This document shows, piece by piece, positions 46,150 to 50,608 of a stretch of 64,000 nucleotides of DNA. Location: contig NZ_JARVSD010000009.1 of NCBI RefSeq assembly GCF_030209445.1, positions 1 through 64,000 of the forward strand, given 5' to 3'. How positions within the stretch are numbered: position 1 is the first letter of the stretch; each line of letters begins with the position of its first letter. The translations under genes were made by a program, and so were the position numbers. The notes under the pieces were generated by a model that searched no databases, was not told the DNA's origin, and saw only the letters and a program-made list of their open reading frames with translations. This stretch comes from Promicromonospora sp. MEB111. GTDB taxonomy: Bacteria > Actinomycetota > Actinomycetes > Actinomycetales > Cellulomonadaceae.

Positions 46150-46419
46150 TCAGGCCGCGAGGGCCTGCTTCACCTGGGCGAGGCTCGGGTTGGTCGCGGC
46201 GGAGCCGTCCGGGTAGACCACCGTGGGCACGGTCTGGTTGCCGCCGTTGACCTGCTCCACGAACGCGGCGGCCTCGGGCTGCTCCTCGATGTCGATGACG
46301 GTGTAGCCGATGCCCTCGGAGTCGAGCTGCGTGCGCAGCCGCCGGCAGTACCCGCACCAGGTGGTCGAGTACATGAGGACGGTCCCGTCCTCGGGAATCG
46401 GCGTGGTCGTCTCGGACAT
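46150..46419 (-). CDS. mrx1: Mycoredoxin (glutaredoxin-like)
   Basis: An 89-residue thioredoxin-fold protein with the active site WCGYC and the cis-proline loop TVPTVVYPDG. Mycoredoxin 1 reduces mycothiol mixed disulphides. The ATG at 46419 follows AAGGAGA. It is divergent from uvrD2 exactly as Rv3198A-uvrD2 in M. tuberculosis, though relative orientation may vary. Confidence 0.93.
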   Translation of the reverse strand: MSETTTPIPEDGTVLMYSTTWCGYCRRLRTQLDSEGIGYTVIDIEEQPEAAAFVEQVNGGNQTVPTVVYPDGSAATNPSLAQVKQALAA

Positions 46420-46459
46420 CTGTTCTCCTTGTCGGTGGTTGCTGCGAGAATCGCAGACG

Positions 46460-48532
46460 ATGCTCACCCAGACCAACTCCGCCGACGGTTCGAATCATCC
46501 TGGACCGATGAGCCCCGACGCGATCCTGACCGCGCTCGATCCCGAGCAGCGCGAGGTCGCTCTCGCGCTCAACGGGCCCGTGGTCGTGCTGGCGGGGGCG
46601 GGTACGGGCAAGACCCGCGCCATCACGCACCGCATCGCGTACGGCGTCCGCATCGGCGCGTACAAGCCGACCAGCGTGCTGGCGGTGACGTTCACGGCGC
46701 GTGCCGCGGGGGAGATGCGCACCCGTCTGCGGGGCCTGGGCGTCCAGGGGGTGCAGGCCCGGACGTTCCACTCCGCGGCGCTGCGGCAGCTCGGCTACTT
46801 CTGGCCGCGGGTGGTCGGCGGCGCCCCGCCGCGGCTGCAGGAGTTCAAGGCCCCGATCGTCGCCGAGGCCGCGCGGCGCGTCGGCCTCAGCGTGGACCGC
46901 GTGGCGGTCCGCGACCTGAGCAGCGAGGTGGAGTGGGCCAAGGTCTCGCTGGTCGCCGCGGACGACTACGAGAAGGCGGCGTACCGGACCGGCCGCGAGG
47001 CGCCGTCGGGCTACGACGCGCAGGCCGTGGCCCGCCTCATCACGGCGTACGAGGACGTGAAGACCGAGCGCGAGGTCATCGACTTCGAGGACGTCCTGCT
47101 CATGCTCGCGGACATGCTCAACAGCCACAAGATCGTGGCGGACGAGGTGCGCTCGCAGTACAAGCACTTCGTGGTCGACGAGTACCAGGACGTCTCGCCC
47201 CTGCAGCAGTTCCTGCTGGACCAGTGGCTGGGCGGGCGCAGGGAGCTGTGCGTCGTGGGCGACCCGTCGCAGACCATCTACTCCTTCACCGGCGCCACCC
47301 CGCGGCACCTCCTCGACTTCCGGCGCACCTTCCCGGAGGCGCAGGAGGTGCGCCTCGTGCGCGACTACCGCTCAACTCCCCAGGTGGTGAACCTCGCCAA
47401 CGAGGTGCTCAAGCGGGCGGGCCGGGCGGGCGGCGCGCACCAGGCGCTCGAGCTGATCGCGCAGCGCGAGCCGGGCCCGGCGGTCGCGTTCACGGCGTAC
47501 GACGACGACGAGGCCGAGGCGAAGGGCATCGCCACCCGGGCCGCGCGCCTGATCGGGTCGGGCGTGAAGCCCAGCGAGATCGCCGTGCTGTACCGCACCA
47601 ACGCGCAGTCCGAGGCGTTCGAGGCCGCGTTCGCCGACGCCGGGGTGGGCTACCTCGTGCGCGGCGGCCAGCGGTTCTTCCAGCGCAAGGAGGTGCGGGA
47701 CGCGCTGGTGCTGCTCCGGGGCGCGGCCCGGTCGGCCGACCCGGCGGCGTCCATGCCGGACCAGGTGCGCGACATCCTCGCCGCCGCCGGCTGGGCCGAC
47801 CAGCCGCCGTCGGCCCGCGGCGCGGCCCGGGAGCGCTGGGACGCGATGCAGGCGCTCGTCTCGCTGGCCGACGACCTGGCGGCGGCCGCGACGCCGGAGA
47901 GCCCCGCGACCGTCTCCGGGCTCGTGGCGGAGCTCGACGAGCGGGCCTCCGCGCAGCACGCGCCGACGGTCGAGGGCGTCACGCTCGCCTCGCTGCACGC
48001 GGCGAAGGGCCTGGAGTGGGACGCGGTGTTCCTCGCGGGGATGAGCGAGGGCCTCATGCCCATCTCGCTGGCGGAGACCGACGACGCGGTGCACGAGGAG
48101 CGCCGGCTGCTGTACGTGGGGATCACCCGGGCCCGCGAGCACCTGGACGTGTCGTTCGCCCGCTCGCGCAACCCGGGCGGGCGGGCCACACGCAAGCGCA
48201 CGCGGTTCCTCGACGGGCTCTGGCCGGACGAGCCGCGCGCGCCGCGCGCGGCTCGCGCCCGGACAGGGCCGAAGGGCCAGGCCCGCACGCAGCTCACCGG
48301 CGAGCACGACGCCGCGCTCTTCGACGCGCTGCGCGAGTGGCGGCGGGAGGTGGCCCGGGAGACCGACAAGCCCGCCTACACGGTGCTCACGGACGCGACC
48401 CTGGCGGCCATCGCGGAGATCCGACCTTCGGGCACGACCGAACTTGCTCGCGTGAACGGGATCGGTCCTGCGAAGATCGACAGGTACGGCCCCACGATCC
48501 TCGCGATCGTGGCGAACGCACCGGCTTCTTGA
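46460..48532 (+). CDS. uvrD2: UvrD2-type superfamily I DNA helicase
   Basis: A 690-residue 3'-5' DNA helicase. Walker A is AGAGTGKTRAIT, motif II VVDEYQDVSPLQ, motif III GDPSQTIYSFTGA, and ASLHAAKGLEWDAVF is motif V. A C-terminal HRDC domain (about 614-690) ends in ARVNGIGPAKIDRYG. The linker between motor and HRDC has no cysteines, whereas mycobacterial UvrD2 has a tetracysteine module there. The start may be ATG 46460 or the in-frame ATG 46508, which aligns better with mycobacterial proteins. Followed by a terminator and the whiB7 leader. Confidence 0.93.
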   Translation: MLTQTNSADGSNHPGPMSPDAILTALDPEQREVALALNGPVVVLAGAGTGKTRAITHRIAYGVRIGAYKPTSVLAVTFTARAAGEMRTRLRGLGVQGVQARTFHSAALRQLGYFWPRVVGGAPPRLQEFKAPIVAEAARRVGLSVDRVAVRDLSSEVEWAKVSLVAADDYEKAAYRTGREAPSGYDAQAVARLITAYEDVKTEREVIDFEDVLLMLADMLNSHKIVADEVRSQYKHFVVDEYQDVSPLQQFLLDQWLGGRRELCVVGDPSQTIYSFTGATPRHLLDFRRTFPEAQEVRLVRDYRSTPQVVNLANEVLKRAGRAGGAHQALELIAQREPGPAVAFTAYDDDEAEAKGIATRAARLIGSGVKPSEIAVLYRTNAQSEAFEAAFADAGVGYLVRGGQRFFQRKEVRDALVLLRGAARSADPAASMPDQVRDILAAAGWADQPPSARGAARERWDAMQALVSLADDLAAAATPESPATVSGLVAELDERASAQHAPTVEGVTLASLHAAKGLEWDAVFLAGMSEGLMPISLAETDDAVHEERRLLYVGITRAREHLDVSFARSRNPGGRATRKRTRFLDGLWPDEPRAPRAARARTGPKGQARTQLTGEHDAALFDALREWRREVARETDKPAYTVLTDATLAAIAEIRPSGTTELARVNGIGPAKIDRYGPTILAIVANAPAS

Positions 48533-48578
48533 GCCGTTTCGGACCCCTCCCGGGGTGGTCCGAAAAACTTCTCAAGAA
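48526..48578 (+). terminator. Terminator after uvrD2
   Basis: A two-tier hairpin: outer arms TTCTTGAG/CTCAAGAA (48526-48533, 48571-48578) and inner arms around TTTCGGACC and GGTCCGAAA. It overlaps the uvrD2 stop codon. Confidence 0.7.
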
Positions 48579-48585
48579 AGTTTGG

Positions 48586-48621
48586 AAAAAGAGTTGGCTC
48601 GCCAAGGCGGCCCGGCATAGT
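48586..48621 (+). promoter_or_regulatory. WhiB7-type promoter of whiB7
   Basis: An A-tract (48586-48590), then GAG, then -35 TTGGCT (48594-48599), a 16-base spacer and -10 CATAGT (48616-48621). An AT-rich element three bases upstream of the -35 is the known binding feature for WhiB7's AT-hook at sigma-A promoters, so autoregulation is likely. The start would be near 48628. Confidence 0.7.
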
Positions 48622-48627
48622 GTTCAC

Positions 48628-48870
48628 ATGTCCCTGACAGCAGTGGGCGAGGCCGAGAGGCTTGGCCCGGATTCGAGTGAGGAGGTGGGTGCATTGGAGA
48701 TGAACATGATTCCGCAGACGGATCTGCAGGTGTGCAAGCACGTGCTCGGCTACGAGCCCGTCCCGGCCACTGGCGCAGCTCTGCCTTTCCGCGCGCGCAC
48801 TCACCGCGGAGGCGTCAAGCCGTCCGCTCTCGCACCCGACTCCGCATCTCCAGGAGACTCACCGGTCTGA
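48628..48870 (+). CDS. Leader ORF of whiB7 (candidate)
   Basis: An 80-codon frame whose ATG coincides with the predicted transcript start (leaderless). An internal start behind GAGGAGG (TTG 48694 or ATG 48700) would give about 57-59 residues: MNMIPQTDLQVCKHVLGYEP and a basic C-terminal half. whiB7 genes elsewhere carry a translated leader ORF whose stalled ribosome disrupts the terminator. Here the frame ends 16 bases before the terminator stem. Product function is unlikely; translation itself is the signal. Confidence 0.5.
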   Translation: MSLTAVGEAERLGPDSSEEVGALEMNMIPQTDLQVCKHVLGYEPVPATGAALPFRARTHRGGVKPSALAPDSASPGDSPV

Positions 48871-48885
48871 CGACCGAAGAGTTCC

Positions 48886-48925
48886 AGGCCGCGGAGTCCA
48901 CCTAGGACCCGCGGCCTTAATTCTT
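48886..48925 (+). terminator. Attenuator terminator in the whiB7 leader
   Basis: The stem AGGCCGCGG(A)GTCC / GGACCCGCGGCCT (48886-48899 and 48905-48917, one bulged A) is followed by TAATTCTT. This is a proper intrinsic terminator located 110 bases before whiB7 and right after the leader ORF. Confidence 0.75.
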
Positions 48926-49032
48926 GCCCGGAGACCCGGCCCCACCTCGGCCGGCCCGGCAAGGATCTAGCCCCTGGGTCCTGCACCACCAACGTTCATC
49001 GACGACGTTCCTTCAGGACACAGGAGACAACC

Positions 49033-49398
49033 GTGCGCCTCACTGCGCTCCTCGACACTCTTCCCCAGGGCGGCTCGGGCCCCTGGGACCCGCCTCAACA
49101 CCCCGCCACGAGCGGGACCGGTTCGGACTCGGCGGAGTTCAACCGGCTCATGGACACACTGCTGCCGTGCCGTACCAACGACCCGGAGCTGTGGTTCGCC
49201 GAGCACAGCACCCAGGTGGAGCAGGCCAAGGCCCTCTGCCGGACGTGCCCCCTCATCGAGGGCTGCCTCGCGGGCGCCCTCGACCGTAACGAGCCGTGGG
49301 GCGTCTGGGGCGGCGAGGTCTTCGTGGACGGCGCCGTCGTAGCCCGCAAGCGCGGCCGTGGCCGGCCCCGCAAGTCGGAGAACGTCGCCGCCGCATGA
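49033..49398 (+). CDS. whiB7: WhiB7 transcriptional regulator
   Basis: A 121-residue WhiB protein that binds a 4Fe-4S cluster and sigma-A and activates intrinsic antibiotic-resistance genes. The four Cys ligands are in LLPCRTND and LCRTCPLIEGC (C-x2-C-x5-C), followed by the GVWGG turn. The C-terminal AT-hook RGRGRPRK identifies WhiB7 within the family. The GTG at 49033 follows AGGAG. It has its own promoter and a 400-base leader with ORF and terminator. Convergent with the ThiF-like gene, 8 bases apart. Confidence 0.93.
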   Translation: MRLTALLDTLPQGGSGPWDPPQHPATSGTGSDSAEFNRLMDTLLPCRTNDPELWFAEHSTQVEQAKALCRTCPLIEGCLAGALDRNEPWGVWGGEVFVDGAVVARKRGRGRPRKSENVAAA

Positions 49399-49406
49399 CC
49401 CGCGGG

Positions 49407-50471
49407 TCAGGCCGCCCGGACCGGCAGGACCACGCACCCGCACCGCGGGTGCGGCTCCGCCGGCCGGGCGCGGGGGATCCCCGCCGGGAGCGAGATCTCC
49501 AGGCACGCACCGACGGCCGCCGGCCGGTGCCCGTCCAGCTGGGCGAGCACCTGGCCCGCGGCCGTCGCCGCTGCCACGGCGGCGAGCGTCGCCTCGTGCG
49601 TCGGCTCCGGCGTCTTGCGGAGCTGGGCCGCCAGCGCCGGCCACTCCCGGTCGGCGTCCGCGTGGGCGAGGTCGACGCAGCTCACGCAGGCTGACCGGCC
49701 AGGCCGCACCAGCGGGCCCACCACGACGTCGGCCTCACGCACCACGACCGGCAGGTGCGGTACCCCGAGGCCCAGCAGCCGCTGGTACCGCGCCGGGTGC
49801 GCCGCGTGCGGCTCGGTGACCACGACGACGTCGAGCGCCGCAGGGTCCAGCCCCGTGCCGCCCCTGGCGTCGACGTCCACCCGGACCCCGACGCGCGGGG
49901 AACGGTCCGCGAGCAGGGCCTGGACGGCCAGGTCGCGCGCCTCGCCCACGTCGGCCGCCCGTAGGCCGCCCAGCCCGACGTCGGTGGTCTGCACCGGCAG
50001 CGGGTCGCACAGCACGAGGCCGCCCACCCCCGCCGTCGCGAGGTGCAGCGCGACCGCCGTACCCAGCCGCCCGAGCCCGACGACGCCGACGACCCGCCCG
50101 GCGCGCTCCGCGAGCGTGGCGAGCCCGGCGCCGTCGGGCCGCAGCATGCCGAGCGCGGTCGCGTCCGCCGCCCCGTCGGCCGGGGCGGTCACCACGCCGA
50201 CCGCTCCCGGGACGGGGACGAGCACGCCCGCCCGGACCAGGGCGCCCATGATCTCGTCCCGCCGCTCGGCGGGCACGCCGCACCGCGCGGCCGACTGCTC
50301 GACCGTCACGTGCCGCCGCTCCGCGATCTCCTCCAGCCACGATTCCTCGGCCGGCGTGAGCCCGGACAGCACGAACGACCAGCGCGGGTCCGAGCCGCAC
50401 TGCACCTGACCGCCGCCGCGGGTGAGCACGGGCGTGCCGGGCCGGAGCCGCAGGGCGGGGGTGCGCTTCAT
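49407..50471 (-). CDS. ThiF/E1-like adenylyltransferase-family protein
   Basis: A 354-residue protein with an N-terminal winged-helix-like region (about 40-95) and a Rossmann nucleotide site VVGVVGLGRLGTAVALHLA (about 130-147), then VLCDPLPVQTTDVGLGGL as in E1/ThiF/MoeB enzymes. Zinc-type cysteine pairs occur in CVSCVD and the C-terminal CGCVV. The substrate (a ubiquitin-like or peptide C-terminus in the family) is not apparent. It occupies a position like the ThiF-like gene near mycobacterial whiB7. The ATG at 50471 is the best start; the very long open frame upstream is a shadow. Confidence 0.75.
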   Translation of the reverse strand: MKRTPALRLRPGTPVLTRGGGQVQCGSDPRWSFVLSGLTPAEESWLEEIAERRHVTVEQSAARCGVPAERRDEIMGALVRAGVLVPVPGAVGVVTAPADGAADATALGMLRPDGAGLATLAERAGRVVGVVGLGRLGTAVALHLATAGVGGLVLCDPLPVQTTDVGLGGLRAADVGEARDLAVQALLADRSPRVGVRVDVDARGGTGLDPAALDVVVVTEPHAAHPARYQRLLGLGVPHLPVVVREADVVVGPLVRPGRSACVSCVDLAHADADREWPALAAQLRKTPEPTHEATLAAVAAATAAGQVLAQLDGHRPAAVGACLEISLPAGIPRARPAEPHPRCGCVVLPVRAA

Positions 50472-50608
50472 GCCCACCACGATGCCTGACGGCGGCGCGC
50501 CGGGGCCGTTGTCCACAGGCCCGGAGGCATATCCAAAGCATCGAGCGGTCCGGAAGTTCCCGGCTGCGCCCAGAGCCAAATGGACGGCGCAACCCTTGCG
50601 GACCCGGT

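Follow-up and report, generated by a model that had tools for sequence, protein, structure and literature searches.

WhiB7 is a master switch of intrinsic resistance to ribosome-targeting drugs in Actinobacteria. The attenuator in front of its gene, whiB7 or wblC, comprises an upstream open reading frame (uORF), a terminator, and an antiterminator whose sequence overlaps the two, as passages of four papers describe it (PMC11550727, PMC10727445, PMC13393426, PMC4128351). For this attenuator, three of these papers (PMC11550727, PMC10727445, PMC13393426) cite Burian & Thompson 2018 and Lee, Lee & Roe 2022; further whiB7 work cited is that of Poulton et al. 2024 and Dinan et al. 2014 (PMC4128351). 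Comparable leaders control other genes. In the passages available on ErmDL (RLR, PMC8298421) and on the yxjB/tlrB leader (RYR, PMC6851288), a short ORF with a [KR]x[KR] tripeptide precedes RNA elements that control a resistance gene, and the yxjB leader acts by transcription attenuation, as for whiB7. This tripeptide, also written +X+, is the classical arrest motif of macrolides and ketolides (PMC8298421, PMC6851288). In E. coli, the single toiL uORF responds to ribosome drugs of several classes; it controls a toxin-antitoxin operon, unlike the whiB7 uORF, and is compared here by function rather than by sequence (PMC12121999). The same 2025 paper, in the part available, states that ribosome stalling inside the whiB7 uORF is untested.

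The DNA analysed here, called the window, is a stretch of 64,000 nucleotides from Promicromonospora sp. MEB111, in which a promoter, a leader ORF and a terminator lie between a UvrD-like helicase gene (46310-48532) and whiB7 (49033-49398, GTG start); whiB7 and all leader features below are on the + strand. The product of 49033-49398 contains a WhiB domain (Pfam Whib, E 2.4e-16, a model that cannot separate WhiB7 from other WhiB proteins), and an NCBIfam search of it assigned no family. We take the GVWGG motif and the basic, AT-hook-like GRGRPRK tail to be marks of WhiB7, and the gene is named from these two and from its leader. With high confidence, the leader can be regarded as the known whiB7/wblC uORF attenuator, here with a macrolide-arrest-type tripeptide in the sensor ORF. 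It resembles the attenuators of Streptomyces and mycobacteria in its AT-rich box before the -35 element, its uORF behind a Shine-Dalgarno sequence, the intrinsic terminator after the uORF, and the antiterminator built from the uORF end and the terminator. It differs from them in genus and uORF sequence, the exact pairs varying by clade, and in a hairpin with a GNRA loop (P1) that appears particular to the window's family. The promoter, the uORF, the terminator, the antiterminator pairing and the motif enrichment are supported by sequence statistics, from which we infer drug-dependent stalling and read-through. A scan of the whole window with Rfam 15 gave no family match for the leader; only a tRNA gene (RF00005, 57984-58057) and a ZMP/ZTP riboswitch (RF01750, 8419-8505, 57.5 bits) reach the gathering threshold.

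The promoter begins with a putative WhiB7-binding A/T-rich box, GAAAAA (48585-48590), followed after three nucleotides by the -35 element TTGGCT (48594-48599), and after an 18-nt spacer by a -10 element of the TANNNT type, TAGTGT (48618-48623). The original prediction of an A-tract exactly three bases before a -35 element was borne out, with AAAAA at 48586-48590, then GAG, then TTGGCT. This layout matches that given for WblC promoters in the accessible part of PMC7157823, namely GAAAWY, 3 nt, the -35 element, an optimal spacer of 17-18 and TANNNT. The same text places transcription starts at S. coelicolor WblC promoters mostly 7-8 bp past the -10 element, a rule that puts the predicted start here at 48630-48631, in the first bases of a conserved GTCC. 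In single folds this 5' GTCC pairs with the Shine-Dalgarno sequence of the uORF and might sequester it; both sides are nearly invariant across leaders. Of 262 leaders, 187 have an A/T-rich box with TTG-N21-TANNNT no more than 200 nt upstream of the uORF; the expectation from shuffles is 0.1. A simple consensus scan of 47500-50500 detected neither the promoter nor the terminator. Poor hexamers and a bulge in the terminator stem are the probable reason, and the evidence for both elements is comparative.

The sensor uORF (48700-48870, ATG to TGA) has 56 codons and an alternative in-frame start at TTG 48694; its Shine-Dalgarno sequence, GGAGG (48681-48685) within GAGGAGGTGGG, was recognized from sequence and comparison. 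Among 13 Promicromonospora leaders, namely the window's own and those of 12 relatives, the frame from ATG 48700 (or TTG 48694) behind GAGGAGG is intact in every one, at 56 to 58 codons, with 14-16 nt between its stop and the terminator arm, and the layout is shared with other genera. A script that called starts and stops from the Shine-Dalgarno sequence, the start codon and the distance to the terminator found a uORF in 112 of 126 further loci, some of which repeat earlier places.

Between the transcription start and this Shine-Dalgarno sequence lies P1 (48644-48669), a hairpin with the GNRA loop GAGA that is supported by covariation. Across 53 leaders, mostly of the window's family, its pairing is kept in 87.8% of cells, against 70.4% in shuffles and 34-55% when the pairing is slid, and all seven of its pairs show changes on both sides. 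A covariance model of P1 matched all five left-out family leaders that were searched (L076, L080, L084, L085 and L086), with three more (L018, L068 and L077) outside both model and search, and gave no convincing score in 17 leaders of other families (L092, L094, L096-L107, L109, L110 and the like, below 18 bits). By the covariance model, P1 also occurs upstream of whiB7 in one distant genus (L112:1501-1554). Matches to the model, R1, were obtained in 13 of 296 genomes, and three of the loci (the window's own, L112 and L113) adjoin whiB7; the other ten have no significant WhiB7 match, and the three of these ten that were read (L114-L116) are without a leader. In the first set, 41 of 74 leaders had a GNRA hairpin (4.4 expected); in the class set 6 of 89 did (2.3 expected), a count that ruled out P1 as an element of all whiB7 leaders. 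Other clades seem, on inspection by eye, to have different stable hairpins at this place. Protection of the 5' end or insulation of the Shine-Dalgarno sequence can be offered as guesses at the role of P1.

Downstream of the uORF, folding and comparison identify the terminator, with a 5' arm T1 (AGGCCGCGGAGTCC, 48886-48899) and a 3' arm T2 with a T-rich tail (48905-48925); the hairpin spans 48886-48917 and the tail, TTAATTCTT, runs to 48925. Folding of the 48 nt from 48878 to 48925 gives -30.1 kcal/mol (z -6.9), and none of 200 shuffles is as stable, which bears out the intrinsic terminator predicted between the leader ORF and whiB7. The candidate antiterminator strand A1 (GACTCCGC, 48838-48845) lies in the last uORF codons and is the complement of GCGGAGTC (48891-48898) in the terminator arm. 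A second antiterminator segment, GGTCTG (48864-48869), overlaps the uORF stop and can pair with CCAGGCC of the terminator 5' arm, and a small hairpin, CCGGTC / CGACCG (48862-48876), was found around the stop codon from folding and sequence.

The link between the uORF end and the terminator was examined by an arm-swap test, in which 109 distinct terminator arms from 174 leaders were used and the pairing of each uORF end with its own arm was compared with the mean for the arms of other leaders. The own arm pairs better in 87 of 109 cases, with a mean gain of 3.3 kcal/mol (Wilcoxon p 7e-14), and in 51 cases it ranks within the best tenth (10.9 expected). A control segment of the uORF just upstream, which has the same phylogeny, gave no signal (48/109 better, 11 in the best tenth). 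A repeat with 49 arms new to the first set was weaker: 30 paired better, with a mean gain of 2.7 kcal/mol (p 6e-4) and 13 in the best tenth against 4.9 expected, and the control segment scored 25/49 (p 0.91; 6 against 4.9). Compared with shuffled uORF ends, the antiterminator stands out clearly in no more than part of the leaders, ranking fifth or better of 100 in 53 of 77 leaders of the first set and in 42 of 87 of the class set. Nor does every locus follow the layout: seven of the 98 class loci had been set aside because their best hairpin was non-canonical, and in L075, L079 and L093 no canonical layout was found. The codons themselves follow the terminator: where the arm flank is TCGAGG, the uORF end contains CTCGAG in 12 of 14 leaders and in none with the 13 other flank types listed, and the peptide end shifts from W-S-P-P-V to P-P-R-G-R-P-V. 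The uORF end is thus RNA first and peptide second, and the C-terminal peptide (W-S-P-P-V and the like) was ruled out as a peptide signal. On these comparisons, the 3' end of the uORF and the terminator arm co-evolve across Actinomycetes as an antiterminator. A third helix, an anti-antiterminator formed by the region 42-90 nt before the stop and A1, was dropped, since over 109 uORFs it did no better than shuffles (8 against 12.5 expected).

Fold snapshots indicate how the switch may operate. With a ribosome at Arg-Ala-Arg (codons 31-33) and T2 not yet made, A1 and T1 are paired (P 0.9997), and with a ribosome on the stop codon the terminator alone can form. At equilibrium with T2 made, the terminator is favoured (P 0.99994), so the decision of the switch must be kinetic. 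WhiB7 and the housekeeping sigma factor would start transcription near 48630, and ribosomes would load at GGAGG 48681-48685 to translate the 56-codon uORF. A ribosome running freely to the stop codon (48868-48870) would keep the antiterminator strand off the terminator, which would then fold and end the transcript at about 48925, ahead of whiB7. A ribosome slowed or stalled inside the uORF would instead let A1 pair with T1 at 48891-48898, so that the terminator is blocked, whiB7 is transcribed, and the WhiB7 made raises its own promoter. Macrolides should halt ribosomes at one defined site before A1, the RAR codons 48790-48798. The combination of an autoactivating WhiB7 promoter with uORF attenuation, as it had been proposed for this leader, is supported by anatomy, covariation and literature.

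Read-through RNA may hold a further element. A hairpin GGTCCTG / CAGGAC (48977-49019, from the genus alignment) stands directly before the whiB7 Shine-Dalgarno sequence AGGAG (49022-49026), and translational control of whiB7 by this hairpin is possible. In the read-through RNA, the hairpin's 5' arm, GGGTCC, might also base-pair with the GGACCC in the terminator's 3' arm, and by eye the window's relatives have other hairpins before the whiB7 Shine-Dalgarno sequence too. The same genome encodes a second WhiB7-like protein (G000:C18:42027-42275; about 1028-1276 of locus L124) with 58% identity to the window's WhiB7 over residues 32-115, and a match at 57-61% is likewise present in each of the 12 Promicromonospora relatives. 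In L124-L126, the best hairpin of the terminator finder is non-canonical and 360-486 nt away, and the 100 nt before the L124 gene, viewed by eye, contain a GGAAAAG-TTGG box and no leader. This second gene may escape attenuation.

Most of the uORF peptide appears free to vary. Over 12 Promicromonospora leaders, 15, 14 and 16 sites are variable at codon positions 1, 2 and 3, which means that selection does not act on the amino acids of the peptide as a whole. The RAR codons barely vary within the genus. In a family alignment of 45 uORFs, Arg 38 (41/42), Gly 67 (43/44 or more) and Gly 71 (45/45) are invariant or almost invariant at codon positions 1 and 2, and position 3 varies freely. Arg 38 is part of an R-x-R element, which in the window is RAR, codons 31-33 (48790-48798), a +X+ motif of the macrolide-arrest type whose second Arg lies 24 codons before the stop and about 14 codons before the antiterminator strand. 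Unlike ErmDL and yxjB/tlrB as the available passages present them (PMC8298421, PMC6851288), the whiB7 uORF is longer, has the motif internally and controls a master regulator; in those two leaders the motif stalls ribosomes in experiments, whereas here it is a statistical signature.

This signature recurs across whiB7 uORFs. At a similarity of at most 0.6, +X+ was found in 96 of 109 uORFs, against 54.8 ± 5.0 after residue shuffling, and at a stricter cut in 74 of 87 (44.0 ± 4.2), being absent from the other 13. Without the final 13 codons, whose sequence is set by the antiterminator, the count was 65 of 87 against 38.4 ± 4.0. For the 87 uORFs, two basic residues at spacings 2 and 3 were below expectation (40 against 43.5 and 37 against 43.3), spacing 4 gave 45 against 42.6, and spacing 0 was mildly raised (53 against 44.9). 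Control pieces of UvrD were flat (76/94 against 77.4). In the other frames of the uORF DNA, +X+ was slightly up in frame +1 (80 against 73.7) and up in total in frame +2 (z 5.1), but there every tested spacing was up too (z 2.9 to 3.4). Fresh leaders were collected, as the motif had first been noticed by eye in the first set; the resulting 34 uORFs, chosen to resemble neither one another nor that set, contained +X+ in 29 cases against 19.8 (P < 0.001), with other spacings at 15 to 20 against 19.4 to 20.0. The first-set excess lies within 27 codons of the stop, clustered 14-27 codons before it (z 5.0 and 4.1); among the fresh uORFs alone, clustering near the stop did not reach significance (8 against 5.0, P 0.13).

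In a pooled set of 127 uORFs without the last 13 codons, +X+ reached 99 against 58.0 and RXR 82 against 38.6. [KR]P, which is also listed as a macrolide site, was found in 76 against 44.0; PW was found in 11 against 5.1, and DK was not raised (8 against 6.4). PP was depleted, with 4 against 24.0. In the same peptides, [KR]x[DE] (62 against 44.9) and +XXX+ (43 against 56.1) deviate as well. QG is over-represented (40/127 against 22.3), often as FQG[RT][GA] in mid-peptide, and [DE]x[DE] is rare (16 against 28.1). Four hundred dissimilar control pieces were flat for +X+ (266 against 263.3), [KR]P (224 against 213.2) and PP (140 against 139.8), but deviated for QG (61 against 89.0) and +XX+ (283 against 262.3), which makes the residue shuffle an imperfect null. 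Codon-level constraints lie outside the shuffle and are addressed only partly by the frame and control-protein tests, and non-redundancy was defined by string similarity rather than by a tree. The statistics support an arrest-type signature, of which stalling itself is a prediction. No report of +X+ enrichment in whiB7 uORFs was found among the whiB7 matches listed in the open-access literature, and other papers could contain one; the attenuator is already known, and the +X+ enrichment with PP depletion is apparently new.

Two alternative views of the leader concern its basic layout. The terminator might be constitutive and merely dampen whiB7, with regulation at the promoter alone. A promoter with a full WhiB7 box and a very strong terminator would suit such an arrangement, but the co-evolution of the uORF end with the terminator arm, and the experiments on other species cited in the accessible whiB7/wblC literature, make it exceedingly improbable. 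The other view, which stems from the original prediction, holds that a leaderless ORF of 80 codons starts at ATG 48628 and that, together with a second start behind GAGGAGG, it provides two layers of ribosome sensing. As a string, the ORF 48628-48870 exists in the window, and the frame is open in 10 of 13 Promicromonospora leaders. As a gene it does not hold: the frame is shifted in L003, L009 and L011, where a single-base insertion in the loop of the next hairpin makes it end after 17 codons (leader alignment), and the codon at 48628, ATG in 11 of 13, is ACG in L003 and GTG in L011. The comparison of leader ORFs among relatives that had been suggested favours the short uORF, and the supposed second start is the conserved one. 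Outside the genus, the corresponding triplet is frequently something other than a start codon (GAG in L043, ACG in L052, CCG in L081), although it is TTG or ATG in some leaders (L041, L062). The 7-8 bp rule, as the available part of PMC7157823 gives it, puts ATG 48628 outside the transcript, so transcription probably begins downstream of it, and the stretch between the two starts covaries as hairpin P1. With these changes the 80-codon leaderless ORF was rejected; two sensing layers, whose first start is unconserved in the genus, are thus very unlikely.

With the 56-codon uORF attenuator as the preferred layout, the question becomes whether the peptide matters. It may not, if any slow-down in the uORF exposes the antiterminator and +X+ is a by-product of constraints on RNA or codons, an account that is tenable but on the doubtful side. 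Equal substitution at the three codon positions and a peptide end dictated by antiterminator RNA agree with it, as does the finding that amino-acid shortage and drugs of several classes all induce whiB7, reported in the passages available (PMC11550727, PMC12121999). The raised +X+ total in frame +2, where all tested spacings are raised, and the other biases in the same peptides (QG, [KR]x[DE], [DE]x[DE]) point in the same direction. Against it, the +X+ excess is specific to spacing 1 and frame 0, survives removal of the antiterminator codons and was repeated in the fresh set; [KR]P is raised together with it and PP reduced; and Arg 38, Gly 67 and Gly 71 are held at the first two codon positions and released at the third. 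These points would be expected if whiB7 uORFs throughout the Actinomycetes sense drugs through two parts, an antiterminator RNA formed by the last dozen codons, which evolves with the terminator, and a programmed macrolide-arrest peptide in which [KR]x[KR] and [KR]P are selected upstream of that RNA and PP, a stall site even in drug-free cells, is avoided, a proposal that we find evenly poised between belief and doubt. The most economical reading of the sequence data would be a general speed sensor with macrolide-arrest sites built in and drug-free stall sites (PP) removed.

The comparison across leaders points to the codons that need testing, distinguishes constraints set by the RNA from those set by the peptide, and predicts that drug classes will differ in effect; the question of drug stalling inside the whiB7 uORF becomes directly testable at RAR. 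If the two-part sensor is real, WhiB7 induction would have a built-in greater sensitivity to macrolides and ketolides compared with drugs that lack such context dependence, and the whiB7 sensor would be related to the erm leader peptides in function, not by descent, and would be very widespread.
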